A stretch of DNA of 64,000 nt from the IMG/VR virus record IMGVR_UViG_3300005613_000015, positions 1-64,000 of that record, one strand, 5' to 3'. Every line of letters begins with the position of its first letter. Position 1 is the stretch's first letter. The notes beneath the pieces were generated by a model that made no database searches, was not told the DNA's origin, and was given only the letters and a program-made list of their open reading frames with translations. Made by a program: the position numbers and the translations under genes. Shown piece after piece: positions 328 to 29,830 of this stretch. The stretch is from a virus.

Positions 328-777
328 TTAGTTGAATCGGGTGCGGGTTTCGTCGTAAAGGAACACGCCGCAGTCTACGGCGGCTTCAAGGTTAGGCTCT
401 TCGTTATCGAAGAAGTAAGTGCGGAACTTGAGAGAAAGCTCTCGAAGAAGCTCTGCTTTGTAGGCGGAGACTTCCAACCCCTTATCTCCCACACAGTAAA
501 CTTGCTGAGCGGTTACACCGTATTGAGAGAGAAGGCTCATAATCGTCTGAGCAACAATCGACTGGCGAGCGGTCAGAATGTAGACTTCGTGACCCTCATT
601 AGCGACCGTGCGAGCGAAATCGAGAAGAGGAAGCGGCTTGCTCTCAAGAGCGAGCTTTTCGCAATCGTTGAACTCGATAAAGGCATCAAGCCCTTCCGCC
701 TCTTCGTGAATCACGGCAGAGGTTTCAAAGAGGGTTCCGTCAAGGTCGAACACGAATGCTTTAGCTTCTTCTTTCAT
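328..777 (-). CDS. HAD-superfamily hydrolase / phosphatase-like protein (149 aa)
   Basis: Motif I of the haloacid dehalogenase superfamily is clear near the N-terminus: FVFDLDGTLFET, residues about 8-19, with the nucleophile and acid-base Asp pair. Motif II fits YILTARQS (residues about 69-76) and a late acidic motif fits FFDNEE (about 119-124). HAD enzymes of this size usually dephosphorylate nucleotides or nucleic acid ends. The substrate here is not visible; in a phage, a 5'(3')-nucleotidase or polynucleotide 3'-phosphatase role is plausible. The frame is open upstream to 924 and contains an ATG at 786 inside the -10 box. I choose the ATG at 777, seven bases after TATAAT, which makes the mRNA leaderless. 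First gene of a coupled three-gene unit. Confidence 0.8.
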   Translation of the reverse strand: MKEEAKAFVFDLDGTLFETSAVIHEEAEGLDAFIEFNDCEKLALESKPLPLLDFARTVANEGHEVYILTARQSIVAQTIMSLLSQYGVTAQQVYCVGDKGLEVSAYKAELLRELSLKFRTYFFDNEEPNLEAAVDCGVFLYDETRTRFN

Positions 778-813
778 GTGGGTCATTATACCAGACTCAG
801 GCGGTCTGGTCAA
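778..813 (-). promoter_or_regulatory. leaderless early promoter for the HAD gene
   Basis: On the minus strand, TTGACC (813-808), a 17-base spacer, then extended -10 TGGTATAAT (TATAAT at 790-785). Seven bases later is the ATG at 777, so the expected transcription start coincides with the start codon. The -35 box lies inside the 3' end of the preceding gene. Confidence 0.85.
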
Positions 814-985
814 GAGATTTTTGGAGATTCTGGCGAATTTTCCGCCGAACATAGCGGGAGTCCTTCGGCTTCGCCTTGCGCGGGGACACGCGCCACAGGT
901 TGCAGCAGGTGCAGCCGAAGCCACCGATACCGTGACGGGTGCGGAGTGCCTTGTCGTTCGTAAGGTCGAATCCGTTGTTCTTCAT
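797..985 (-). CDS. small early Cys/Arg protein, unknown (62 aa)
   Basis: Starts MKNNGFDLTNDKALRTRHG and carries a Cys cluster CTCCNLW (residues about 25-31) followed by a strongly basic C-terminal half (many Arg/Lys), consistent with a small nucleic-acid-binding or metal-binding protein. The function is unknown. The frame extends upstream as MWYNTR, but those codons are the -10 box itself. The ATG at 985, six bases after TATAAT, is the supported start. Its end carries the -35 box of the next promoter. Confidence 0.65.
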   Translation of the reverse strand: MKNNGFDLTNDKALRTRHGIGGFGCTCCNLWRVSPRKAKPKDSRYVRRKIRQNLQKSLDQTA

Positions 986-1020
986 GCGTGTATTATACCA
1001 CACTATCAGGGGATTGCAAG
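986..1020 (-). promoter_or_regulatory. leaderless early promoter (62-aa gene)
   Basis: Minus strand TGGTATAAT with TATAAT at 997-992 and the ATG at 985, six bases downstream. The -35 is CTTGCA (1020-1015, spacer 17) or TTGCAA (1019-1014, spacer 16). An 80-base repeat lies directly upstream and includes this -35. Confidence 0.85.
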
Positions 1021-1089
1021 CCTTTCGAGGAGGAAATACAAAAGTTTTTTTGCGTGACCTCCTAAGTCCTTGCTATGCATGGGTTTACG
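1011..1089 (-). repeat. early-promoter upstream repeat, copy 1
   Basis: One of three roughly 80-base copies (others at 1730-1807 and 2690-2767), each ending at the -35 box of a leaderless promoter. The shared core on the plus strand includes GCAAGCCTTTC, AGGAGGAAATA, an A-run plus T7 tract, and TTTACG at the far end. The A/T tracts 20-40 bases upstream of the -35 look like an UP element or an activator site. Each copy also has a short minus-strand reading frame starting M(N/H)SK, so a tiny peptide cannot be excluded. Confidence 0.75.
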
Positions 1090-1100
1090 ACGGGACGGAG

Positions 1101-1118
1101 GCCCCCGCCAAAGGGGGT
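1101..1118 (-). other. GC-rich hairpin after the 90-aa gene
   Basis: CCCCC (1102-1106) pairs with GGGGG (1113-1117) around a six-base loop, 34 bases after the stop of the gene ending at 1152 and just before repeat copy 1. There is no T-run on either side, so it is not a standard intrinsic terminator. It could block 3' exonucleases or separate the transcription units. Confidence 0.45.
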
Positions 1119-1151
1119 GTAGACCCTCAAACTCGGGCGCTATTGGCCGAT

Positions 1152-1424
1152 TCAGTTCCAGTCGTCGTAGCTGTAGGAGTCGTCATCTCCCCAGCCAGCC
1201 GAGGTGAAAGCGGACTCGTCATCCCCATCGTTGCAATCGGGTTCTTGCGAGAAGGACACGCCCTTGTCGCAGGTGCAGGCGACTTTATCGCCGTAGTCGT
1301 CGTAATCGTACCCCGTATCGTTGCAGCGGTTGCACTCGAAAGGGGTCCAGTTCTGGGAAGCCTCGAAGGTTTCGAGGTAACGGAAATCGCCTTCGTACTG
1401 GCTAAAAGTGTTGTCGTTCATCAT
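1152..1424 (-). CDS. small early protein with DnaJ-type zinc-finger motif (90 aa)
   Basis: The centre (residues about 30-54) reads CNRCNDTGYD followed by CTCDKG: CxxC plus CxC with Gly residues in the pattern of DnaJ cysteine-rich or zinc-ribbon modules. The C-terminal third is extremely acidic and aromatic (Asp/Glu/Ser/Tyr/Trp), ending DDWN, which could mimic nucleic acid or bind a basic partner. The chosen ATG at 1424 gives a double Met (MMNDNTF); the ATG at 1421 is also possible. TATAAT lies six bases upstream of 1424. No specific family recognised; an early host-modifying role is inference. Confidence 0.7.
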   Translation of the reverse strand: MMNDNTFSQYEGDFRYLETFEASQNWTPFECNRCNDTGYDYDDYGDKVACTCDKGVSFSQEPDCNDGDDESAFTSAGWGDDDSYSYDDWN

Positions 1425-1459
1425 GCGTGTATTATACCAGAGGTTAGTGAGGTTGTCCA
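1425..1459 (-). promoter_or_regulatory. leaderless early promoter (90-aa zinc-motif gene)
   Basis: Minus strand TGGACA (1459-1454), spacer of exactly 17, TATAAT (1436-1431), then six bases to the ATG at 1424. The extended -10 TGG is present. No 80-base repeat precedes this promoter. Confidence 0.85.
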
Positions 1460-1461
1460 GT

Positions 1462-1704
1462 CTATTCTTCGGAATCTTCCGAAAAAATATCATCCTGGCA
1501 GGACTGGCACATCCCCGAAATCTTGTATTCGGCCAGGGAGAGCGCATCGCGCCAGTAGCCACCATCGCCAGGGTAGGCGTCATGGGCAGGGATGCCCTCT
1601 TGGTCACAGGTGACGCACCATCCCCGCTCGATGCACTCGACACGGTTGGAGCCAGTAAGGTTGAAGGAGACGTCGAGCACGGGCGCTTTGTCGGTTGCTT
1701 TCAT
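1462..1704 (-). CDS. small early protein with two CxxC pairs (80 aa)
   Basis: Two Cys pairs, CVTC (residues about 30-33) and CQSC (about 66-69), are arranged like a zinc ribbon with a long insert (DAYPGDGGYW). The C-terminus is acidic (EDSEE). The family is not recognised. The apparent longer frame (MWYNTP prefix) is the -10 box read as protein. The ATG at 1704 lies six bases after TATAAT and is the supported start. It stands alone between its own promoter and that of the next gene. Confidence 0.65.
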   Translation of the reverse strand: MKATDKAPVLDVSFNLTGSNRVECIERGWCVTCDQEGIPAHDAYPGDGGYWRDALSLAEYKISGMCQSCQDDIFSEDSEE

Positions 1705-1739
1705 GGGTGTATTATACCACATCCTCGCAGGATTGCAAG
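1705..1739 (-). promoter_or_regulatory. leaderless early promoter (80-aa gene)
   Basis: TGGTATAAT with TATAAT at 1716-1711, ATG at 1704 six bases on. The -35 is CTTGCA (1739-1734, spacer 17) or TTGCAA (spacer 16), and forms the edge of repeat copy 2. Confidence 0.85.
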
Positions 1740-1807
1740 CCTTTCGAGGAGGAAATAAAAAGTTTTTTTGCTTGACCTTGTAAGTTCTTGCTATTCATGG
1801 GTTTACG
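1730..1807 (-). repeat. early-promoter upstream repeat, copy 2
   Basis: Second copy of the 80-base promoter-upstream repeat, nearly identical to copy 1 through AGGAGGAAATA and the T7 tract, but one base shorter in the A-run. That breaks the frame of the short peptide that copies 1 and 3 could encode. This argues that the conserved unit is a DNA or RNA element rather than a gene. Confidence 0.75.
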
Positions 1808-1818
1808 GCGAGCGGGTG

Positions 1819-1835
1819 GCCCCCCGCAAGGGGGC
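1819..1835 (-). other. GC-rich hairpin after the 64-aa gene
   Basis: GCCCCC (1819-1824) pairs with GGGGGC (1830-1835) around CGCAA, starting four bases after the stop of the gene ending at 1839 on the minus strand. It has the same position relative to a repeat copy as the hairpin at 1101-1118. No T-run follows. Confidence 0.5.
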
Positions 1836-1838
1836 GCG

Positions 1839-2033
1839 TCAAGCAGAAAACCCCAATTCTTGAAGGTCTTTTTCAATTTCTTCGGCGCAAGGCTTACAGC
1901 AGTCCGTGTAGCCGTTACGGGCTTTCTCGGTCACGGAAAGGTTTTGTTCGCACACTTGGCAGGTGAACCACGTTTGCGCGAGCTTGGTTTGGTCTGCCAG
2001 CCACTCGGAGTAGTGTAGGTCGTTGTAACTCAT
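1839..2033 (-). CDS. small early zinc-ribbon-like protein (64 aa)
   Basis: Contains CQVC (residues about 25-28) and DCCKPC (about 44-49), i.e. two CxxC-type pairs roughly 18 residues apart: a plausible treble-clef or zinc-ribbon knuckle. The start overlaps the stop of the upstream 90-aa gene by one base (TAATG), so the two are translationally coupled and share one leaderless promoter. It resembles several short phage zinc-finger proteins in general form only. Confidence 0.7.
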   Translation of the reverse strand: MSYNDLHYSEWLADQTKLAQTWFTCQVCEQNLSVTEKARNGYTDCCKPCAEEIEKDLQELGFSA

Positions 2034-2305
2034 TATTCGTTAGAGGTATCCTCTTGCCGTTGAAGAATAGGGTGAAGTCGGTTAGAATACTCCAACTTAC
2101 CATAGTAGTAGTCGTAGTTATTCATAACTCGGATTCGAGCATCCGTAAGCGTACGAACGTCTTGAATGTTCAGGTAGATTCGATTAGGACCCATCGAGGG
2201 GATGGACACCTGATAAGCTCGCTCGCGGTCTTTGCGTTCCGCGATGACGATTTCGCCTACCATGTAAATGCTTTCGAGAGGAGCGGTATTCATGTCGTTT
2301 TTCAT
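2033..2305 (-). CDS. small early protein, unknown (90 aa)
   Basis: Starts MKNDMNTAPLESIYMVGE. The middle, with alternating hydrophobic residues (GEIVIAERKDRERAYQVSI and YLNIQDVRTL), looks like a small beta barrel followed by a helix, reminiscent of SH3- or OB-size folds; this is not a firm assignment. The frame is open to 2431, but the ATG at 2305 follows TATAAT by six bases. First gene of a two-gene coupled unit with the zinc-ribbon-like protein. Confidence 0.65.
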   Translation of the reverse strand: MKNDMNTAPLESIYMVGEIVIAERKDRERAYQVSIPSMGPNRIYLNIQDVRTLTDARIRVMNNYDYYYGKLEYSNRLHPILQRQEDTSNE

Positions 2306-2340
2306 GCGTGTATTATACCAGATGGGAGAGGGTTTGTCCA
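2306..2340 (-). promoter_or_regulatory. leaderless early promoter (90-aa / 64-aa pair)
   Basis: TGGACA (2340-2335), 17-base spacer, TATAAT (2317-2312), six bases, ATG at 2305. Same type as the promoters at 1425 and 2529. Confidence 0.85.
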
Positions 2341-2357
2341 GAGGAAACTTGAGAAAG

Positions 2358-2528
2358 TTAGAGGATGGGACGCTCTTCGACCTCAACCTCAGCGTTAGGC
2401 CATTCAGCCATAAGCTCAGCCTGACGGACAAGCGCGGTCGCCTTAGCGGCGTGGAGACTGTCCAGAACCTCCTCAGAGGAGCTAAGGGAGATGAGGACGA
2501 CGAACACGGTGAGAGGGGTGTCTTTCAT
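2358..2528 (-). CDS. small early acidic protein, unknown (56 aa)
   Basis: Found by reading down from the promoter. The ATG at 2528 lies six bases after TATAAT and the frame runs 56 codons (MKDTPLTVFVVLISLSSSEE at the N-terminus) to TAA at 2358. A hydrophobic N-terminal stretch (LTVFVVLISL) is followed by a predicted helix and an acidic tail (EVEVEERPIL). No family recognised. It is supported mainly by the promoter geometry and fits exactly between neighbouring units. Confidence 0.6.
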   Translation of the reverse strand: MKDTPLTVFVVLISLSSSEEVLDSLHAAKATALVRQAELMAEWPNAEVEVEERPIL

Positions 2529-2563
2529 GGGTGTATTATACCAGAGGGAAGAGGGTTTGTCCA
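2529..2563 (-). promoter_or_regulatory. leaderless early promoter (56-aa gene)
   Basis: TGGACA (2563-2558), 17-base spacer, TATAAT (2540-2535), then the ATG at 2528. The first part of this promoter (TGGACAAACCCTCT) is nearly identical to that at 2306-2340. Confidence 0.85.
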
Positions 2564-2570
2564 GAGAAAA

Positions 2571-2663
2571 CTACAGAAAAGCTGCGAGTTGGTACAGAAA
2601 CAGAATCGCCAAGCCAAGACCGATGAGTTCGAGGACTTCGAGGAGGAGCTTCGTTTTCTTCAT
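2571..2663 (-). CDS. 30-aa single-span membrane peptide
   Basis: The ATG at 2663 is six bases after TATAAT. The 30-residue frame begins MKKTKLLLEVLELIGLG and continues hydrophobic to the end, with a basic N-terminus and then one membrane span: a classic positive-inside peptide. Such peptides are often toxic or modulate host membrane complexes, but there is no direct evidence of function here. The strong promoter is the main support for a real gene. Confidence 0.5.
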   Translation of the reverse strand: MKKTKLLLEVLELIGLGLAILFLYQLAAFL

Positions 2664-2698
2664 GTGTGTATTATACCACACTTCCGAGAGAATGCAAG
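2664..2698 (-). promoter_or_regulatory. leaderless early promoter (30-aa gene)
   Basis: TGGTATAAT (TATAAT at 2675-2670), -35 CTTGCA (2698-2693) with 17-base spacing, ATG at 2663. Preceded by repeat copy 3. Confidence 0.8.
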
Positions 2699-2767
2699 CC
2701 TTTCAAGGAGGAAATAAAAAAGTTTTTTTGCATGACCTTGTAAGTTCTTGCTATTCATAGGTTTACG
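2690..2767 (-). repeat. early-promoter upstream repeat, copy 3
   Basis: Third copy of the 80-base repeat, very close to copy 2 in its distal half (GACCTTGTAAGTTCTTGCTA shared by both). Read on the minus strand from 2758, a 32-codon frame exists, but there is no ribosome site and copy 2 breaks it. A diverged partial copy (TTGCAAGC region) lies at 3351-3380 upstream of the outermost promoter. Confidence 0.75.
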
Positions 2768-2808
2768 GCTCGCCGGGGGCCGCCGTCAAGAAAATTTTGG
2801 ATTTTTTT

Positions 2809-2901
2809 CTAGCGGTCTTGCTCGCCTTGTGAGGCGGCTACGCACAAGGACCAAGCGACGAACGCTAGGCCAGCGCAGATGATTCCGAGAGCAACTAGCA
2901 T
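2809..2901 (-). CDS. 30-aa membrane peptide, coupled to the 75-aa gene
   Basis: The ATG at 2901 lies inside the last codons of the preceding gene (stop at 2895), giving a 7-base overlap typical of coupled translation. The product starts MLVALGIICAGLAFVAWSL, one hydrophobic span, and ends in a short polar tail (SQGEQDR). Length and composition fit a small membrane protein; no family is recognisable. Confidence 0.45.
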   Translation of the reverse strand: MLVALGIICAGLAFVAWSLCVAASQGEQDR

Positions 2902-3122
2902 CCTGCGTAGGCGCTCTGCGTAGCTCGCCAGGGCTTCATCAGGCTACCGTTGTGGTTGCCGTAGTGCTTGCCGCACTTCATGCGAGGAAGCGACTGGCGA
3001 AGGCTGATGTAATGCTCCAGCAGAGCCAGGACGAGCTTGTTCTCGCTCGGAAGCGCCTTGTAGGTGAGGGCGAAGAGGGAACCGATGAGGTGAGAGTAGA
3101 CGTTGATGATGTCGTTTTTCAT
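2895..3122 (-). CDS. small early protein, unknown (75 aa)
   Basis: Starts MKNDIINVYSHLIG. Mostly helical N-terminal two thirds (LIGSLFALTYKALP, then LVLALLEHYISLRQ), then a Cys/His-containing basic tail (MKCGKHYGNHNG). The frame runs upstream to 3296, through the next gene in another frame, but TATAAT six bases before the ATG at 3122 fixes the start. First gene of a two-gene unit with the 30-aa membrane peptide. Confidence 0.6.
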   Translation of the reverse strand: MKNDIINVYSHLIGSLFALTYKALPSENKLVLALLEHYISLRQSLPRMKCGKHYGNHNGSLMKPWRATQSAYAGC

Positions 3123-3157
3123 GTGTGTATTATACCACGGGTTAGAGAGTTTGTCCA
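3123..3157 (-). promoter_or_regulatory. leaderless early promoter (75-aa gene)
   Basis: TGGACA (3157-3152), 17-base spacer, TATAAT (3134-3129), six bases, ATG at 3122. The -10 is preceded by CGTGG rather than CTCTGG, but the TGG extension is kept. Confidence 0.85.
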
Positions 3158-3175
3158 GAGGAAACTTGGATTTTT

Positions 3176-3322
3176 TCAAAAAGAGGGGAGCATCCGAATA
3201 AGCTCCGCAGCGCGCAGCGCAATCGTAGCGCATACCGTCAGGGCGAGAGCGAGGACATCCGAGAACATAACCGTAAGAACGCCCAACAAGACCCATTTGA
3301 TGATTTTTCCGTTTTTCTTCAT
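3176..3322 (-). CDS. 48-aa small membrane protein
   Basis: The ATG at 3322 follows TATAAT by six bases. The 48-residue frame starts MKKNGKIIKWVLLGVLTVM, giving a basic N-terminus and a long hydrophobic stretch (residues about 8-37) that could form one long or two short spans, ending in MLPSF. Outermost gene of the early minus-strand block, facing the late plus-strand genes across a 200-base divergent spacer. Function unknown. Confidence 0.55.
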   Translation of the reverse strand: MKKNGKIIKWVLLGVLTVMFSDVLALALTVCATIALRAAELIRMLPSF

Positions 3323-3357
3323 GCGTACATTATACCACGTTCTTATAGGATTGCAAG
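3323..3357 (-). promoter_or_regulatory. leaderless early promoter (48-aa gene)
   Basis: TGGTATAAT (TATAAT at 3334-3329), ATG at 3322, -35 CTTGCA (3357-3352, spacer 17) or TTGCAA (spacer 16). First promoter of the early block on the minus strand. Confidence 0.85.
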
Positions 3358-5806: not shown

Positions 5807-6790
5807 TCAATCATAGCGTTTCAAAACTGTAAGTGCTTGTTTGATACAGTCGTCCATATCAAGATACTTATAAGTGCCTAAGCGTCCTAAGAAAAGAACA
5901 TTATTCTTTGGAAGCTCCTTATACTTGTTATAGACCTCCTGGGACTCAAAAGGCTTTGGATAAAACCTCTCAGTAGTTGGATTATTCAAGCTAAACTCCT
6001 CTGGAAATTCGCGTGTAAACACACTCTTCTTTACATCTTGGTCATACCAGTGAGAATGGTCTACGGTGCGGGTATGTTTAACGGATTTATTGCATTCGTT
6101 GAGTTGCACCCAATGAGTTCTCTGGTCTTCGAAGATTTCAAACCTGAGCGAACGGTATGTTAGAGGACCGTAACAATAATCGTAATACTGGTCAATGGAG
6201 CCCGTGTAAATCAGAAGGTCATAGGGATATTTCTTCCATTCATCTGGGTCGCAGCCGAGGTGTACCTCGCAACCGTCAAACATGTTTGTGATAAACTGCG
6301 TATAACCCCCAATAGGAACGCCTTGGAACTCATCGGTGTGATAGTAGGGGTTGCGGTCATTTCGCTTCTTCGGAACGCGACCGCTGATACTCTTAGGGAG
6401 TTTATCAAATGGGATGCCCCAATGTTTCTCACTGTAATCTACGAACAGTTGTTCTAGAATCTCCTCCGAAGACCAAGCCCCCACAATATCTTGACTGACA
6501 AGGTTGTAGGGGATTGGAATTACTTTATCATTACGAAGTCTGGCGATTGCGGTATGCTTGAAGTTGTTAAAGGCTGCATACTTGTTTACGAAGTCCCACA
6601 CATACTGTTGGTCGGTGTGGAATGCATGAGGTCCGTAGTTGTGAACCTGAATGCCTTTAATGCTCGAATCAAAGCAGTTACCTGCAATGTGAGGTCGGCA
6701 TTCAAATACTTGAATGTCGTGTCCTTTCTCCTTCAAGGTTGCTGCCGCCGTAGCAGCAGCCAACCCAGCCCCTACGATTGTAACTTTCAT
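5807..6790 (-). CDS. glf: UDP-galactopyranose mutase (327 aa)
   Basis: Flavoenzyme that converts UDP-galactopyranose to UDP-galactofuranose, the donor for galactofuranose in glycans. Seen here: N-terminal FAD-binding VGAGLAAATAAATL (third Gly of the usual pattern is Ala), FECRPHIAGNCFD, the conserved NYGPHAFHTD, WGIPFDKLP, PIGGYTQF and the C-terminal LGRLGTYKYLDMDDCI that closes the FAD site. It is somewhat shorter than typical bacterial enzymes (about 370-390 aa) but has all landmarks. Its ATG overlaps the TGA of the upstream DUF3431-like gene (ATGA), so the two are coupled. Probably supplies a sugar donor for modification of phage or host surface glycans. Confidence 0.93.
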   Translation of the reverse strand: MKVTIVGAGLAAATAAATLKEKGHDIQVFECRPHIAGNCFDSSIKGIQVHNYGPHAFHTDQQYVWDFVNKYAAFNNFKHTAIARLRNDKVIPIPYNLVSQDIVGAWSSEEILEQLFVDYSEKHWGIPFDKLPKSISGRVPKKRNDRNPYYHTDEFQGVPIGGYTQFITNMFDGCEVHLGCDPDEWKKYPYDLLIYTGSIDQYYDYCYGPLTYRSLRFEIFEDQRTHWVQLNECNKSVKHTRTVDHSHWYDQDVKKSVFTREFPEEFSLNNPTTERFYPKPFESQEVYNKYKELPKNNVLFLGRLGTYKYLDMDDCIKQALTVLKRYD

Positions 6791-7500: not shown

Positions 7501-9405
7501 TCATAGTTCACATACTCCTCCAACACAATCCTCAACGGCTCCCGCCTGTTCCTCGTAAACGCCTTCCCTCATCATCTTGTCGATGTTAATCGCCGTCCAA
7601 TCAACAGCCGTCAAAGGCTCGTTCCCGCGAGACCCTGCACGGTAGAAGGTAAAGCCCTTAAGTTCGCTCGCGTACTCTGCAAGCTGGTCTTTCACTTCTT
7701 GGGTTGCTTGATAGTCACTGGGAAGATTGCATGTCTTTGAGACAGCCGAGTCAATGTAAGATTGTACCACTGCTTGCACTTTGATGTGTTCTTCGGGGGT
7801 GACATCGTAGGCTCCGACGACATGGCTGATGTCTCGTCCTCGTTCGTAGAGGTCTTTGAAAAGGGAGTCCACGACAAAAGTTTCGTTCCATACCCCATCA
7901 GTACCAGTACGCCAACGCCGCTTATACACAGGAGCGAAAATAGGCTCAATACCAGTAGATGTGCCAAGGACCATACTAATCGTCCCGGTAGGAGCAACAG
8001 TGAGTAGCACAGCGTTACGAAGTCCTTTACTTCGAATTTCGTTTCGGATTCGGGAGGGGAGGGTTTTGAAGAACTTTTCATCTTTTAGCTTATCCCAATC
8101 ATAGGCAGGGAAGGAACCTTTTTCAGCAGCAATCGCACAGGAAGCCTTGTACGCTTCGTTTCTAAAAGTAGCGCAAACACGGTCAAGGAATTCCAGACAG
8201 CTTTCCGAGCCGTAGCGATACCCTGCTTTGATAAGGAAATAGTGAAGACCCGTCAGTCCAAGTCCAACACGACGAGAACGGAAACCAGCATCACGACACT
8301 CATTAATCGGGAAATGGTTTACTGTTAGAATATTATCTAGATAACGAACACCTGTACGAATTGTACGAGCAAACTTCTTCCAATCAATTTCTCCGTTATC
8401 ATCTACCATATTCGCAAGGTTTACATGTCCAAGGCAGCAGTTGCCGTAATTGGGAAGAACCTCTTCACCACAAGGGTTGGTGGATGGCATATACTCGAAG
8501 TACGATACATTGGTGTACTCGTTGGCAAAGTCGATGTTGAAGATTCCAGGCTCTCCCGATTCAATTGCGTTCTCAACTAGACGACCCCATAGTTCCTTGG
8601 CACGAATTTCAATCTTACGAGCGTTCTCGAACTTGTCTACCCAATGCTTCTTGTGGAACATATCCGCACGACCAAGAGCGTCTTCCTCATCAAGAGCAAC
8701 GACCTTTACAGTATCGTTACCCTCCTCAGAGATACGGTCTACTTCGTACTGATAATACTTCTGGTGACGCCCACCCCAAGTAAAATACCACTCCTCATCA
8801 TTTTCCACGGCGCGAAGGAATCGCTTTGTAATTGCTACCGAAACATTGAAATTGTTTAGCTCATGAAGGTCAAGCTTCACATCAAGGAACTCTAGAAGGT
8901 CAGGATGAGTGATATTGAGAATTGCCATCAGAGCAGTACGACGATTCTTGCCCGCACGTACATGATTGCCAATCTCGTTAATCATACGCATCACAGAAAT
9001 TGAACCGGGCGCGCTATTGCGAATATTTCCGATGTCGTTTCCTTTAGGACGAATGTTACTAAAATTGAACCCGATTCCCCCGCCACCGCAGGAAATCTTA
9101 TACATATCAGCAATCGTCTTACCAATACTCTCTACGGAATCTTCAGGGTCAAGAACATAGCAGTTCAGAAGATTTTGATGAGTTCTTCCAGAACCGAAAA
9201 GAATGCGACCTCCAGGACAGAAATCTCCAGAACGAATGGCATCGTAAAACTTCTTTTCTACGGCAACCCGTTTTTCATCACTTTCCGCGCCAGCAGCGTG
9301 AGAGGCTGCTCGCTTTGCACATTCTTTCCACGACTTCTCACCGGGGAAAGCATATTTTTCCATAAAGATTTGGTGTCCAAGACCAATAGGTTCAAAATTA
9401 TTCAT
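7501..9405 (-). CDS. nrdJ: class II (B12-dependent) ribonucleoside reductase (634 aa)
   Basis: Makes deoxyribonucleotides for phage DNA, using adenosylcobalamin as radical source; no small subunit gene is nearby. Seen: CPGGRILFGSG at 63-73, active-site Cys82 in LLNCY, GGGGIGFNFS (107-116), NPCGE at 310-314 with the radical Cys312, CCLGH (323-327), APTGTIS near 475-481 and a C-terminal redox pair Cys627/Cys632 (CVGGVC). There is no N-terminal ATP-cone and no intein. The glycine-rich GGGGIGFNFSNIRP signature is of the NrdJ type rather than NrdA. Transcribed from a promoter at 9513-9541 through a structured leader. Confidence 0.93.
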   Translation of the reverse strand: MNNFEPIGLGHQIFMEKYAFPGEKSWKECAKRAASHAAGAESDEKRVAVEKKFYDAIRSGDFCPGGRILFGSGRTHQNLLNCYVLDPEDSVESIGKTIADMYKISCGGGGIGFNFSNIRPKGNDIGNIRNSAPGSISVMRMINEIGNHVRAGKNRRTALMAILNITHPDLLEFLDVKLDLHELNNFNVSVAITKRFLRAVENDEEWYFTWGGRHQKYYQYEVDRISEEGNDTVKVVALDEEDALGRADMFHKKHWVDKFENARKIEIRAKELWGRLVENAIESGEPGIFNIDFANEYTNVSYFEYMPSTNPCGEEVLPNYGNCCLGHVNLANMVDDNGEIDWKKFARTIRTGVRYLDNILTVNHFPINECRDAGFRSRRVGLGLTGLHYFLIKAGYRYGSESCLEFLDRVCATFRNEAYKASCAIAAEKGSFPAYDWDKLKDEKFFKTLPSRIRNEIRSKGLRNAVLLTVAPTGTISMVLGTSTGIEPIFAPVYKRRWRTGTDGVWNETFVVDSLFKDLYERGRDISHVVGAYDVTPEEHIKVQAVVQSYIDSAVSKTCNLPSDYQATQEVKDQLAEYASELKGFTFYRAGSRGNEPLTAVDWTAINIDKMMREGVYEEQAGAVEDCVGGVCEL

Positions 9406-10821: not shown

Positions 10822-10830
10822 TATATAATA
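10822..10830. promoter_or_regulatory. two-way AT-box promoter
   Basis: TATATAATA in the 20-base gap between divergent starts at 10816 (minus) and 10837 (plus). On the plus strand TATAAT (10824-10829) is seven bases before the ATG at 10837, so the mRNA would be leaderless. The same 9-mer is at 12018 and 22405. Confidence 0.6.
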
Positions 10831-10836
10831 GTGCTT

Positions 10837-11343
10837 ATGCAGAAGAAAATATTGTCTGTTTTTGGAGATGAATCCTTTCCTCGTACAGGTCTTGGCGGCT
10901 TGCCTACAAAACGACAGGTTGCGACAGACAATATTATGATGTTCTTTAAGAGTCTTGCACCAGACTTAGTATACATTGTTCCAAGGAACGGAACTTGTGC
11001 TTATGCAGCCGCAGTGTGCAAGATGATGAATATCCCATACATCTTAGTCTGTCCGTATCCTGGATATTTTGAAAATCTAAAGATAACTGACGCAAAGCTT
11101 TTATCTCGGGTAATAGATTCTGCTAAAACTCTTATTATTCTAAACGAGACTCCGATTGATAAAAACCAAGCAATAAAGGAATCAAATCAGTTCCTATCAA
11201 ATGTCGGAGCGTTTATGGTCTTTTTATATGATTCAGAAGGAGACCCAATGTTTCAAGAGTTTATGGACAAACAATGTGAGAAGTATTTTGATTCAAGGGT
11301 TCTGATGGAGTTAGCGTACAACGAGCGGCAAGTGTTTAGATAG
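10837..11343 (+). CDS. SLOG/Rossmann-like protein, possible nucleotide-binding (168 aa)
   Basis: N-terminal MQKKILSVFGDESFPRTGLGG, then YIVPRNGTCAYAAAVCKMMNIPYILVCPYPGYFENL and later LLSRVIDSAKTLIIL. This order (beta strand-turn-helix, a Gly-containing loop, then a hydrophobic strand and an AD-like helix) resembles the SLOG/YpsA-type Rossmann fold that binds nucleotides or their derivatives. The catalytic-type residues are not clear, so the assignment is tentative. The ATG at 10837 is chosen (leaderless after TATAAT); a GTG at 10831 is in frame. It overlaps the convergent glycosyltransferase gene by 33 bases. Confidence 0.45.
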   Translation: MQKKILSVFGDESFPRTGLGGLPTKRQVATDNIMMFFKSLAPDLVYIVPRNGTCAYAAAVCKMMNIPYILVCPYPGYFENLKITDAKLLSRVIDSAKTLIILNETPIDKNQAIKESNQFLSNVGAFMVFLYDSEGDPMFQEFMDKQCEKYFDSRVLMELAYNERQVFR

Positions 11344-26692: not shown

Positions 26693-26995
26693 ATGGTAAA
26701 GGTAAAAACATCTCGCTACGTATCGTACTCTCCGCTCAATCGTCAACACCGGGGTAAACCTTTTTTAGATTTAGTTAATTCTGAATCATGGAAAACGTTT
26801 ATTACAGAAAATTTAGATAAGTATCAGTATAAGATTGCAGTGATTCCGGCTACGATGGAATATCGCCCTGATGTTATCTCTTTTTCAATTTACGGCACGG
26901 AAAAATTATGGTGGCTTATTTGTGCGGCAAATGGAATTATTGACCCGAATACAGAATTAGTTGCTGGAAAGCAGATTAGAATTCCTATAATATAA
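26693..26995 (+). CDS. 53: baseplate wedge protein, gp53-like (100 aa)
   Basis: Short gp53-type wedge subunit. The LysM-like end is clear: KLWWLICAANGIIDPN followed by LVAGKQIRIP, the standard pattern by which gp53 and LysM-like tail proteins end. The N-terminal part (RYVSYSPLNRQHRGKPFLDL) is the usual clamp region. Much shorter than T4 gp53 (196 aa), as in many distant T4-type phages. Two bases after the previous stop, three before the next gene. Confidence 0.82.
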   Translation: MVKVKTSRYVSYSPLNRQHRGKPFLDLVNSESWKTFITENLDKYQYKIAVIPATMEYRPDVISFSIYGTEKLWWLICAANGIIDPNTELVAGKQIRIPII

Positions 26996-26998
26996 CAC

Positions 26999-29830
26999 AT
27001 GTCTAGGATTGGTTACAGAACGACTGCGCCCGCACAGGTATTTTTATCCTTTAACTATGAAGCGTTATTGGACACGGGTGCGGGTATAAGTAATTATGAT
27101 GACCCTCTGAACCTGAAGGATACTTTTTTATCCTTTGAGTACACCCCCGCAAACACTCCGAATGCACAGGGTAGTCACATTAAGATTGTTCTGATTAACC
27201 CGAATACAAATATTGAAAAGCTTCTATTCTCAAAGTATGCCGCATTTACTCCAAGAGCTTGGAAGTCGCAAGATGAGGTGTTTCAAGAGCTTCGCGAGAA
27301 TAGCCGAAAACTAGACACAGCGTACATTCGCTGGGGTTACGTATCTGACGACCCAGATGACGCTACAAAAGATAAAACAGCTTTATCGCATATCCATAGA
27401 ATTCATCTCATTGAGATTGATTACGATATTAACAGCAATCAAGATAGACTTGTTACTCTACGCTTCTCGGACTCCTTTGATACTTTCCTGAGAGGTTATA
27501 TAAAATCTAACATAGAATTACCTCCATTCTCGGTTACTTTAACTGACAACGACAATAAGCTGCGTAAGATTAGTGATGTGGTAGGTGAAAGGCTTCTAAA
27601 TGTGCTTGGCATGGCGGACGGGTATGAGTTTGTAAACAACATGTCCAGCGCGCACAGAGATTCTTTAGACGAAGCTTTACGAGGAGCTTTAGCGACTCTT
27701 ACAAATAAAGAGCTTGATTCGGTTCCATCACTTGCAGGTAAGCAAATGCCCTCACTGGTTGATATGCCGCTTGTTCTTGCCCCCCAAGAAAATGTTAATG
27801 ATGACGACGTAAAAAATACATTATCCGCATATCAGAAGTTTTTGCACTTTTTAGGAGGGTCTTTACGAGTTCCTACAGAAGATGGTGATGCGATTGCAAC
27901 TGTTGATGGGGAGTCTGTTGAGCTTACAAAGATTCCAGAACCGCAGCCTTCTTTAAATTCTGAGGGAGTAGAAAATGCAGGAACTTTAGATAACCCGAAC
28001 ACAAAAGCAGCCAGCCAGGCTAAGGTCGCGGCAACTGCTGACCCAGACGAAAAACATCATGTATATTTTGAATCAATAGGATTTCATCATATTGACAAGA
28101 ATCCATATTCTCGATATCCAGGAGGAAACCCTGATGAAACCCCCTACTCCGCGCCTTTTAAATACTTGTATTTTTTATGTACGTATGATTCTGAAACAGG
28201 TATTAAAACCAAGTTTACTTTAGACGAGCTTAGACAAATGTACGGGGATATGGTTAGCCCGTACGGACCAGCAGGGCAGACCAACAATCAGAATTATAAA
28301 TACATGTTCATTAATCAGCCAGCCTACAACGCTTCAAAAAAAGAGGAGGGCGGCTTCTGGTGGTGGTCGGATAGTGCAGAGAAGGCTCAAGAAAAGTTTA
28401 TTGCATATAATGCAGACGGTGATAAGATGATATCATATGGTGCAGCCCGTGCCCAGCTTTGGACGACGATTCAATTGCTTGAAGCAAGATACGCTGAAGC
28501 TGCCGCCCCTGTTGAAGATGTCGAACATGCAGCCGCAGTACAAGATACGTCCGAAGCGTATGAAGAATCAGGAGGGCAAAAAGAAAAATCCCCAGTCCCT
28601 GCGGCTGAAAAAAAATACACCGCTCTTTTTGAGAATCAAGGAAATCCCATTCAGATTCTGGGTTCGCTCGTCGGAATGTTAAATGAGTCTATTCTCAGGT
28701 ATGGCTCTTCTAAACTTCTCACCTACGCAAGATTTGAGTATGCGAATATACCTCCTGACCGACGAGAGGATTTTACTAAGGCTATCGGGCATTCCCTGAA
28801 CTTTGAGAGTTATGATGGCGTATTCGTTCTTGGCGATTCGGATGAGCTTGAAAAGTTGACCGAGGCTTTCTCTGAACCTATTAAATCTTTCGCAATTCAG
28901 GTTGCAGAGGACCAGAAAAGGTTGTCTCTGGCTAGTGGGTTCTCAAAGAGAAAGGATAATATTATTACAGGGCTTTCGTTTCGGCAAGATAATGCCAAGA
29001 TGTATACTGCCTTAAGAATGGCACCTTCCTTCAAACAAAAACTGTATGTAGTAGGAAAACGGTTTGAGAGTAAGGAGTACCGAGATACTATTGCACAAGC
29101 AGTTTATTTTGATTGGGGCGCGTTGAATGGTGCTAACAACCAACCGAGCGACTCCTCAAAATCAGATGTAGATGCACGTTCAGTCCCTCCCGACGCCTTC
29201 GCTGATGATGTTATTGAACACAATCTAAAGGCCGCGCTAAGCTATTCTGATACGAATAATGGAGATAGCCAGAACCCAGACATCCCGAAACTTACAAAAG
29301 AAATAAAAGAGGATTTAAAGTTCATTCTTGATAATAGCTTTATGGATATATTCTTTCCTTTAAAGGACGGTAGCCAAAGCCAAGTAAGCGTTAAATCAAA
29401 TAGTGGAGAAGACGAGTTAGTTTCTACAAAAAAAATTCCATTTTATCGCACGATAGGAGCCTCCCCCCTAGCTGCACTTACTTCCAAAACAAAAAGCGAA
29501 GATGAAGAGAAAGCACTTCTTTATGCAGCAAAAATGCAAGCTTTAAGTCAGTTACAAAATACTATAACTGATGTAGAAATAACAACTTTAGGAGTGCCTG
29601 AGCTAGACCTATTACCACAAGAAATGGCAACTAGAAAAGTTGCTTTGTGGGTAGCAGAACCAAGGTCTCCTGGAGAGTATAATTGGATTACTGGAACATA
29701 TACAATACAAAATCTTTCCCATAAAATTGACGAGTCTGGATACACAAGTAGTTTTACCATGTACCCGTGGAGACCTCAAATTTCTGAGGATTTAGTAAAA
29801 CACCAAACAGCATTTTTGAGCGATGATTAG
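26999..29830 (+). CDS. baseplate hub protein, gp27-like, with large insert (943 aa)
   Basis: N-terminal 220 residues read like a tail hub domain (SFEYTPANTPN, DRLVTLRFSDSFDTFLRGYIKS) and the C-terminal 130 carry GEYNWITGTYTIQNLSHKI and SSFTMYPWRPQIS, typical closing strands of gp27/gpD-type hubs. Between them lie about 550 residues with acidic and Pro/Glu-rich stretches, a clear insertion compared with T4 gp27 (391 aa). It lies directly before, and overlaps by eight bases, the gp5-like spike gene, as expected for the hub-spike pair. No catalytic domain recognised in the insert. Confidence 0.65.
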   Translation: MSRIGYRTTAPAQVFLSFNYEALLDTGAGISNYDDPLNLKDTFLSFEYTPANTPNAQGSHIKIVLINPNTNIEKLLFSKYAAFTPRAWKSQDEVFQELRENSRKLDTAYIRWGYVSDDPDDATKDKTALSHIHRIHLIEIDYDINSNQDRLVTLRFSDSFDTFLRGYIKSNIELPPFSVTLTDNDNKLRKISDVVGERLLNVLGMADGYEFVNNMSSAHRDSLDEALRGALATLTNKELDSVPSLAGKQMPSLVDMPLVLAPQENVNDDDVKNTLSAYQKFLHFLGGSLRVPTEDGDAIATVDGESVELTKIPEPQPSLNSEGVENAGTLDNPNTKAASQAKVAATADPDEKHHVYFESIGFHHIDKNPYSRYPGGNPDETPYSAPFKYLYFLCTYDSETGIKTKFTLDELRQMYGDMVSPYGPAGQTNNQNYKYMFINQPAYNASKKEEGGFWWWSDSAEKAQEKFIAYNADGDKMISYGAARAQLWTTIQLLEARYAEAAAPVEDVEHAAAVQDTSEAYEESGGQKEKSPVPAAEKKYTALFENQGNPIQILGSLVGMLNESILRYGSSKLLTYARFEYANIPPDRREDFTKAIGHSLNFESYDGVFVLGDSDELEKLTEAFSEPIKSFAIQVAEDQKRLSLASGFSKRKDNIITGLSFRQDNAKMYTALRMAPSFKQKLYVVGKRFESKEYRDTIAQAVYFDWGALNGANNQPSDSSKSDVDARSVPPDAFADDVIEHNLKAALSYSDTNNGDSQNPDIPKLTKEIKEDLKFILDNSFMDIFFPLKDGSQSQVSVKSNSGEDELVSTKKIPFYRTIGASPLAALTSKTKSEDEEKALLYAAKMQALSQLQNTITDVEITTLGVPELDLLPQEMATRKVALWVAEPRSPGEYNWITGTYTIQNLSHKIDESGYTSSFTMYPWRPQISEDLVKHQTAFLSDD

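Follow-up and report, generated by a model that had tools for sequence, protein, structure and literature searches.

IMGVR_UViG_3300005613_000015 is a virus record of 101,674 nucleotides (nt), of which positions 1–64,000 constitute the window analyzed here. Positions 777–3356 of this window harbor nine modules, each of which is very probably a sigma-70-type promoter that starts transcription at the A of a start codon, thereby producing short, independent mRNAs that begin with 5′-AUG. The layout is a trait of a clade of phages, in which it exists beside genes with ordinary leaders. Below, positions labeled G000 are coordinates of the record, some of them beyond the window, and L-numbers denote the stretches or contigs that were compared.

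All nine modules lie on the minus strand, a point that the original prediction did not mention, opposite to the structural genes, and share one architecture, i.e., a −35 box, a spacer of 16–17 nt, TGGTATAAT, 6 or 7 nt, and ATG. TGG precedes TATAAT in the modules, and the gap between TATAAT and ATG is 6 nt at eight sites and 7 nt only at 777. Two subtypes can be distinguished: one combines TTGCAA or TTGCAT with a 16-nt spacer (985, 1704, 2663, and 3322), while the other has a 17-nt spacer and either TGGACA (1424, 2305, 2528, and 3122) or TTGACC (777). The −35 and −10 hexamers fall within the 16–18-nt spacing of sigma-70 promoters, above chance. A tenth copy of the module is located beyond the window, at positions 99119–99136 (+) of the record. 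The nine promoters, with the position of the A of each ATG, are the following:

785–813, minus strand: promoter 1, TTGACC, 17 nt, TATAAT; 7 nt to the ATG at 777
992–1019, minus strand: promoter 2, TTGCAA, 16 nt, TATAAT; 6 nt to the ATG at 985
1431–1459, minus strand: promoter 3, TGGACA, 17 nt, TATAAT; 6 nt to the ATG at 1424
1711–1738, minus strand: promoter 4, TTGCAA, 16 nt, TATAAT; 6 nt to the ATG at 1704
2312–2340, minus strand: promoter 5, TGGACA, 17 nt, TATAAT; 6 nt to the ATG at 2305
2535–2563, minus strand: promoter 6, TGGACA, 17 nt, TATAAT; 6 nt to the ATG at 2528
2670–2697, minus strand: promoter 7, TTGCAT, 16 nt, TATAAT; 6 nt to the ATG at 2663
3129–3157, minus strand: promoter 8, TGGACA, 17 nt, TATAAT; 6 nt to the ATG at 3122
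3329–3356, minus strand: promoter 9, TTGCAA, 16 nt, TATAAT; 6 nt to the ATG at 3322

The original prediction had placed nine promoters with this spacing in front of nine start codons, and all were found. Its claim that these genes have no Shine-Dalgarno sequence also holds, as none is present at the nine ATGs or at site 99122 of the record. Each of the nine ATGs opens an open reading frame (ORF) of 30–149 codons, and several of the genes are preceded by spacers of ~80–150 nt. The assertion that nearly all genes of an early block carry such a promoter is slightly too strong: nine genes do have one, but minus-strand ORFs such as 168–326 and 1839–2033 lack a promoter of their own. The genes of the block are probably early. 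Of note, a 134-nt element comprising the promoter and ~90 nt upstream, with an A7-C-T5-like stretch, occurs in three copies (978–1111, 1697–1830, and 2656–2789). Structured RNA was considered for these repeated intergenic stretches and rejected, with folding z-scores of +0.25 to −1.1 (not significant) and no Rfam match.

For the analysis of spacing, a strong promoter was defined as an exact TATAAT with at least 5 of 6 bases of the −35 box. ATG lies 6 or 7 nt after TATAAT in 10 of the 12 strong promoters of the whole record, compared with a mean of 0.07 and a maximum of 1 in Markov shuffles; the spacing is therefore beyond chance. When TATAAT alone is considered, ahead of an ATG that opens an ORF of at least 40 residues, the distances peak at 5, 6, and 7 nt (5, 10, and 4 cases, respectively), with 0–2 cases at each other distance. 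The same preference is seen in contigs found only via ribonucleotide reductase, where ATG is at exactly 6–7 nt in 22 of 31 strong promoters, and in pattern-found contigs after removal of the pattern sites (60 of 82). For the clade and related contigs together, pattern-chosen sites included, the count is 127 of 153, and GTG, TTG, or CTG is found at 5–8 nt in none of these 153 promoters. A reversed-pattern control gave no matches in the record or in eight other pattern-bearing records, each of which has 3–15 matches to the real pattern, while a control scan with ATG at 22–23 nt yielded zero loci with an array.

The A of the ATG is the seventh or eighth base after the −10 box, and bacterial RNA polymerase usually starts 7–8 bases after this box. 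Its preferred initiator is a pyrimidine at −1 and an A at +1. ATG is directly preceded by C at 80 of 96 non-redundant sites and by T at 13 of the remainder, and the predominance of C is as expected if the RNA starts at A. In this phage, C precedes ATG at all 11 promoter-adjacent sites, while only 2 of 27 Shine-Dalgarno-led ATG genes have it. If this C is not part of the RNA, it would have no role in translation. The exclusive use of ATG can be set beside the poor use of GUG and UUG at mRNA 5′ ends in enterobacteria. With a −10 box 6–7 nt before the start in nine of nine cases, no Shine-Dalgarno sequence, and AUG only, a transcription start at or within ~1–2 nt of the start codon, and thus leaderless mRNAs, is strongly supported by the sequence. 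The central proposal of the original prediction, a start at the ATG, thereby draws support from spacing, the preceding C, and exclusive ATG, as well as from orthologous starts and coding conservation. The ORFs behind the promoters are as follows:

328–777, minus strand: 149 residues, HAD-like phosphatase (MKEEAKAFVFDLDGTLF...); orthologues in L307 and L325 start at the promoter-adjacent ATG
797–985, minus strand: 62 residues; L132 orthologue 84% identical, with a ratio of nonsynonymous to synonymous substitution rates (dN/dS) of 0.21
1152–1424, minus strand: 90 residues, cysteine-rich small protein; ATGATG start
1462–1704, minus strand: 80 residues, cysteine-rich; orthologues in L105/L084, L147, L325, and L345 start at the promoter-adjacent ATG
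2033–2305, minus strand: 90 residues; L132 orthologue 97% identical, dN/dS 0.13
2358–2528, minus strand: 56 residues; L140 orthologue with the same start architecture
2571–2663, minus strand: 30 residues, hydrophobic microprotein; L132 relative 67% identical, dN/dS 0.25
2895–3122, minus strand: 75 residues; relatives in L132, L153, L311, L339, and L084
3176–3322, minus strand: 48 residues, hydrophobic; no diverged relative found

Judged by their conservation, these ORFs are real genes that start at the promoter-adjacent ATG. Across the closest pairs, dN/dS is 0.13–0.36. For six of the nine genes (777-, 985-, 1704-, 2305-, 2528-, and 2663-type), the diverged orthologues open with an ATG 6–7 nt after a −10 box, as do most relatives of the 3122-type ORF. 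In the HAD-like phosphatase, the catalytic motif FVFDLDGT lies 4–7 residues past the promoter-adjacent ATG in all three phages; therefore, its start cannot lie much downstream. The geometry is also kept at record gene 99134 (MNIF...), whose L122 counterpart shares ~35% protein identity, and both L122 and L136 retain the MNIF N-terminus, with a −10-like box immediately before the gene. The 90-residue protein of ORF 2033–2305 has no match among cultured phages. Coding potential was assessed with a codon-usage model, as a fifth-order coding model was overfitted. L099/L138 (IMGVR 3300005346_000137) has a near-identical early block with a frameshifted 3122-type gene and one spacer of 18 nt, perhaps due to sequencing error.

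Sequence comparison indicates that the promoter–ATG layout has been inherited within an uncultured T4-like clade. The search for TATAAT 6–7 bases before ATG in related phages, which the original prediction had proposed as a check, located the pattern in no fewer than eight further lineages of the clade, whose terminases are 44–83% identical and whose arrays adjoin the terminase block. Arrays are present in L082–L085, contigs found only via ribonucleotide reductase, and scans of IMG/VR with a TTGCAAT version and a TTGACA version of the pattern added those of L109, L112, L119, L122, L132, L140, L147, L149, L153, L307, L312, and L325. In L119, L132, L140, L149, L307, L312, and L325, the array shares its contig stretch with a terminase that has 44–51% identity to the one in the window; for the contigs nearest to the window, identity is 79–85%. 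A terminase tree, with thin sampling and long branches, separates the clade from five other T4-like or huge phages by a branch with support 86/84. L080 and L100 lie in the clade but show no array in the stretch examined. Ten cultured or reference phages (cyanophages, Pseudomonas, Xanthomonas, and Pseudoalteromonas phages, pelagiphage HTVC008M, T4, RM378, phiYS40, and one huge phage) have 0 or 1 pattern match each, and the distance histograms of T4, HTVC008M, and RM378 (50 kilobases (kb) each) lack a 5–7-nt peak. The uniform set had been called unusual for a phage early block; it is not limited to one such block but is a hallmark of the clade, and TATAAT is found 5–7 nt before ATG at several other genes of this phage as well. 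A tubulin/TubZ-like GTPase gene is located near the leaderless block of L325 (7827–9041, +; Pfam Tubulin 1.7e-8, TubZ-like_C 1.8e-8), and an ORF similar to it by eye is found near that of L307 (6637–7851, +).

Leaderless expression would be one of two modes in these phages, since genes with leaders and Shine-Dalgarno sequences are found in the same genomes. In this phage, ordinary AGGAG-type Shine-Dalgarno sequences precede structural genes such as those of the capsid and sheath, and some clade promoters of the same type give leaders of ~25–70 nt with a Shine-Dalgarno sequence, one of them in this phage at G000 93717. Some promoters without an adjacent ATG were considered as small structured RNAs, a candidate that was rejected, as several are followed by a leader, a Shine-Dalgarno sequence, and an ordinary gene. 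The QRTPAEIIAETEAKL family is leaderless in L132 and L153 and has a leader with AGGAG in L312; in L325, one and the same ORF has an in-frame ATG next to the promoter and another one inside. The layout is thus a choice made per gene, and an altered host initiation system, which the original prediction had invoked as a possible setting, is not needed as an explanation. The Shine-Dalgarno-led genes, including the strong-promoter gene at G000 93717, argue against a need for such an alteration, while the leaderless core of the prediction is strongly supported.

Beyond the block, TATAAT lies 5–7 nt before ATG in 10 of 96 other genes, compared with 1.3 expected for a hexamer, mostly without a −35 box. 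These genes include those of a DnaB-like helicase, UvsX, and dCMP deaminase and may belong to a middle or late class. Sites of this kind in the window include:

10824–10839, plus strand: TATAAT 7 nt before the ATG of an ORF that extends to 11343; no clear −35
26986–27001, plus strand: TATAAT 7 nt before the ATG of a 943-residue ORF; no clear −35 and no Shine-Dalgarno sequence

At G000 74455, 76071, 81636, 84909, and 92122 (L008/L009), ATG lies exactly 5 nt past a TATAAT that lacks a −35 box, with replication and nucleotide genes among others; these sites may form a second leaderless promoter class, of middle or late type. Neither a Shine-Dalgarno nor a −10-like sequence precedes the ATG of many genes in this phage, so other Shine-Dalgarno-independent initiation must exist.

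In the proposed mechanism, the host RNA polymerase with its housekeeping sigma factor would read the promoters soon after infection, recognizing TTGACA, TTGCAA, or TGGACA, a 16–17-nt spacer, and usually the extended −10 element, and would start 7 or 8 nt past the −10 box. The products would be separate short mRNAs beginning with 5′-AUG, to which ribosomes, probably 70S, would bind directly; such binding to the 5′ AUG of leaderless mRNA has been reviewed as a mechanism (PMC9031893). Promoter and start would thus be packed into ~40 base pairs (bp) for each small, probably early, gene, in a host that presumably translates leaderless mRNA well.

Several points weigh against this account. In more diverged pairs, dN/dS is weaker (0.55–0.70) or saturated, and the ORF at 3322 is the one without any diverged relative. 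Contigs L101–L153 and L279–L358 were picked by a pattern that contains the spacing, a bias that is countered by the exclusion of those sites and by the homology-found contigs. RNA polymerase could start 1–2 nt upstream (ACACGC has G at −2), which would leave a leader of 1–2 nt, and read-through from upstream promoters could add longer transcripts. It is very unlikely, however, that most translation proceeds from such read-through mRNAs, with the −10-adjacent ATG reflecting a compact layout and initiation being Shine-Dalgarno-independent or coupled. The tandem genes on one strand with short gaps make read-through possible, and the many genes with neither type of signal before ATG are in keeping with it. 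Yet a strong promoter is retained at every gene, always at 6–7 nt, several of the genes follow the spacers noted above, and read-through leaves the C before ATG and the exclusive ATG unexplained. That the ATG is instead part of a promoter initiator motif, with true starts downstream or with non-coding transcripts, would fit its near invariance beside the promoter and the clade promoters whose leaders precede a Shine-Dalgarno-led ATG. This explanation is extremely improbable in view of the purifying selection from the ATG onward, the alignment of orthologous N-termini at the ATG, the position of the HAD motif, and the conserved MNIF N-terminus of G000 99134.

Alternatively, the phage may alter host initiation, through the balance of initiation factors or damaged Shine-Dalgarno pairing, such that leaderless mRNAs are read then, as proposed for phage phiYS40. 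In that precedent, as summarized in PMC3594737, leaderless middle/late mRNAs go together with an increase in IF2 and a decrease in IF3. However, the block described here looks early rather than middle/late, ordinary Shine-Dalgarno leaders are found at the structural genes and one strong-promoter gene, and a non-exhaustive scan of the encoded proteins revealed no gene for an initiation factor or for ribosome modification; this alternative is quite unlikely. A broader proposal, itself unlikely, is that leaderless initiation is the main takeover mode of the clade, with arrays of separately transcribed 5′-AUG mRNAs, independent of Shine-Dalgarno pairing, favored when the phage or a host defense disables Shine-Dalgarno-dependent initiation, which may occur by an initiation-factor shift, removal of the anti-Shine-Dalgarno, or RNases that cut Shine-Dalgarno sequences. 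The preferred reading remains that of promoters starting at the ATG as one mode beside led genes.

The leaderless principle is known; a clade-wide array of strong, −35-bearing promoters abutting start codons in a T4-like lineage is undescribed as far as searched, and no report of leaderless arrays in T4-like phages was found among openly licensed papers. The classical single leaderless phage mRNA is that of lambda cI, transcribed from the sigma-70 promoter PRM. It is named as a leaderless mRNA in PMC9031893. In contrast to the array of lytic genes described here, cI is one maintenance gene. The early promoters of T4 are recognized by the host sigma-70 holoenzyme and, as in the present phage, many promoters serve small genes. 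However, T4 genes have ordinary leaders. Over 50 kb, where a strong promoter is followed by an ATG within reach, the distance is 40–49 nt and never 5–8 nt, and the full T4 record has no pattern match.

Most middle and late transcripts of the Thermus phage phiYS40 have been reported to be leaderless (Sevostyanova et al. 2007, summarized in PMC3594737). Like the predicted arrays of the present phage, the leaderless genes of this lytic phage form a whole program and not an isolated case. PhiYS40, however, infects Thermus and has its leaderless mRNAs in the middle/late class, while the genes described here belong to a T4-like clade, are probably early, and have sigma-70 promoters with a −35 box and an extended −10; the phiYS40 genome has no match to GGTATAATN(6,7)ATG. 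In Deinococcus-Thermus, a −10 box a few bp upstream of an ORF acts as a promoter that yields leaderless mRNA and has a spacing requirement, with experimental support in Deinococcus, and adding a −35 box raises expression (PMC12340547). Those genes are bacterial, genome-wide, and often without a −35 box, in contrast to the small-gene arrays of a phage with a strong −35 box and TGGTATAAT. In TA-led genes of Actinobacteria and other bacteria, a TATAAT-like signal ~10 bp before the start marks leaderless genes, which are numerous in Deinococcota and Actinomycetota (PMC3160421), and in the alphaproteobacterium Caulobacter, leaderless mRNAs match led ones in translation efficiency (PMC4117421). These share with the phage genes the TATAAT-like signal near the start but are cellular. 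Leaderless-rich hosts thus span Deinococcota, Actinomycetota, and alphaproteobacteria, and the data favor none of them.

By its gene content, the phage is a member of an uncultured clade of T4-like myoviruses, distant relatives of phage T4. The record encodes a T4-type (gp17-type) terminase, a gp20 portal, a gp23 capsid protein, a contractile sheath, and baseplate proteins, as well as a T4-like replication set composed of a split DNA polymerase, a DnaB-like helicase, UvsX, SbcCD, and SSB. The best cultured relatives share ~31% identity in the capsid protein and 31–35% in the terminase; no cultured phage is near-identical or matches the nine-promoter region at the DNA level. A capsid homology search for the host found zero relatives in 84,980 bacterial and archaeal genomes. 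A promoter-pattern scan of bacterial and archaeal contigs returned mostly AT-rich Clostridia among the matches listed and points to no host.

The DNA polymerase is split into two ORFs, G000 67959–68933 and 69384–70925 (L008: 3959–4933 and 5384–6925), which match consecutive positions of phrog_17 (528–785 and 796–1238) and are separated by a 161-residue ORF. The product of G000 97720–98304 (L010: 2720–3304) is weakly similar to sigma-70 region 2 (Pfam 7e-4, below the cut-off; phrog_351 5e-4) and is a candidate late sigma factor; its L122 orthologue has a leaderless strong promoter. In the window, a ribonucleotide reductase large chain (7501–9405, −) is ~31–34% identical to the enzymes of other phages, some of which are annotated as class II or nrdJ, and an ORF at 5807–6790 (−) resembles UDP-galactopyranose mutase by eye.

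To our knowledge, most leaderless phage mRNAs come from single genes, such as lambda cI, or, in a Thermus phage, from the middle/late class. If the proposed reading is true, the near-identical promoter–AUG modules across a T4-like clade would constitute a natural library for ribosome loading on 5′-AUG and for start choice by RNA polymerase. The QRTPAEIIAETEAKL family, whose orthologues switch between leaderless and Shine-Dalgarno-led layouts, would allow both modes to be compared on one gene. For gene calling in these genomes, the layout provides a rule in which the start codon is TATAAT plus 6 or 7, which rescues microproteins such as the 30-residue ORF at 2663. Finally, the arrays predict a host that translates leaderless mRNA well.

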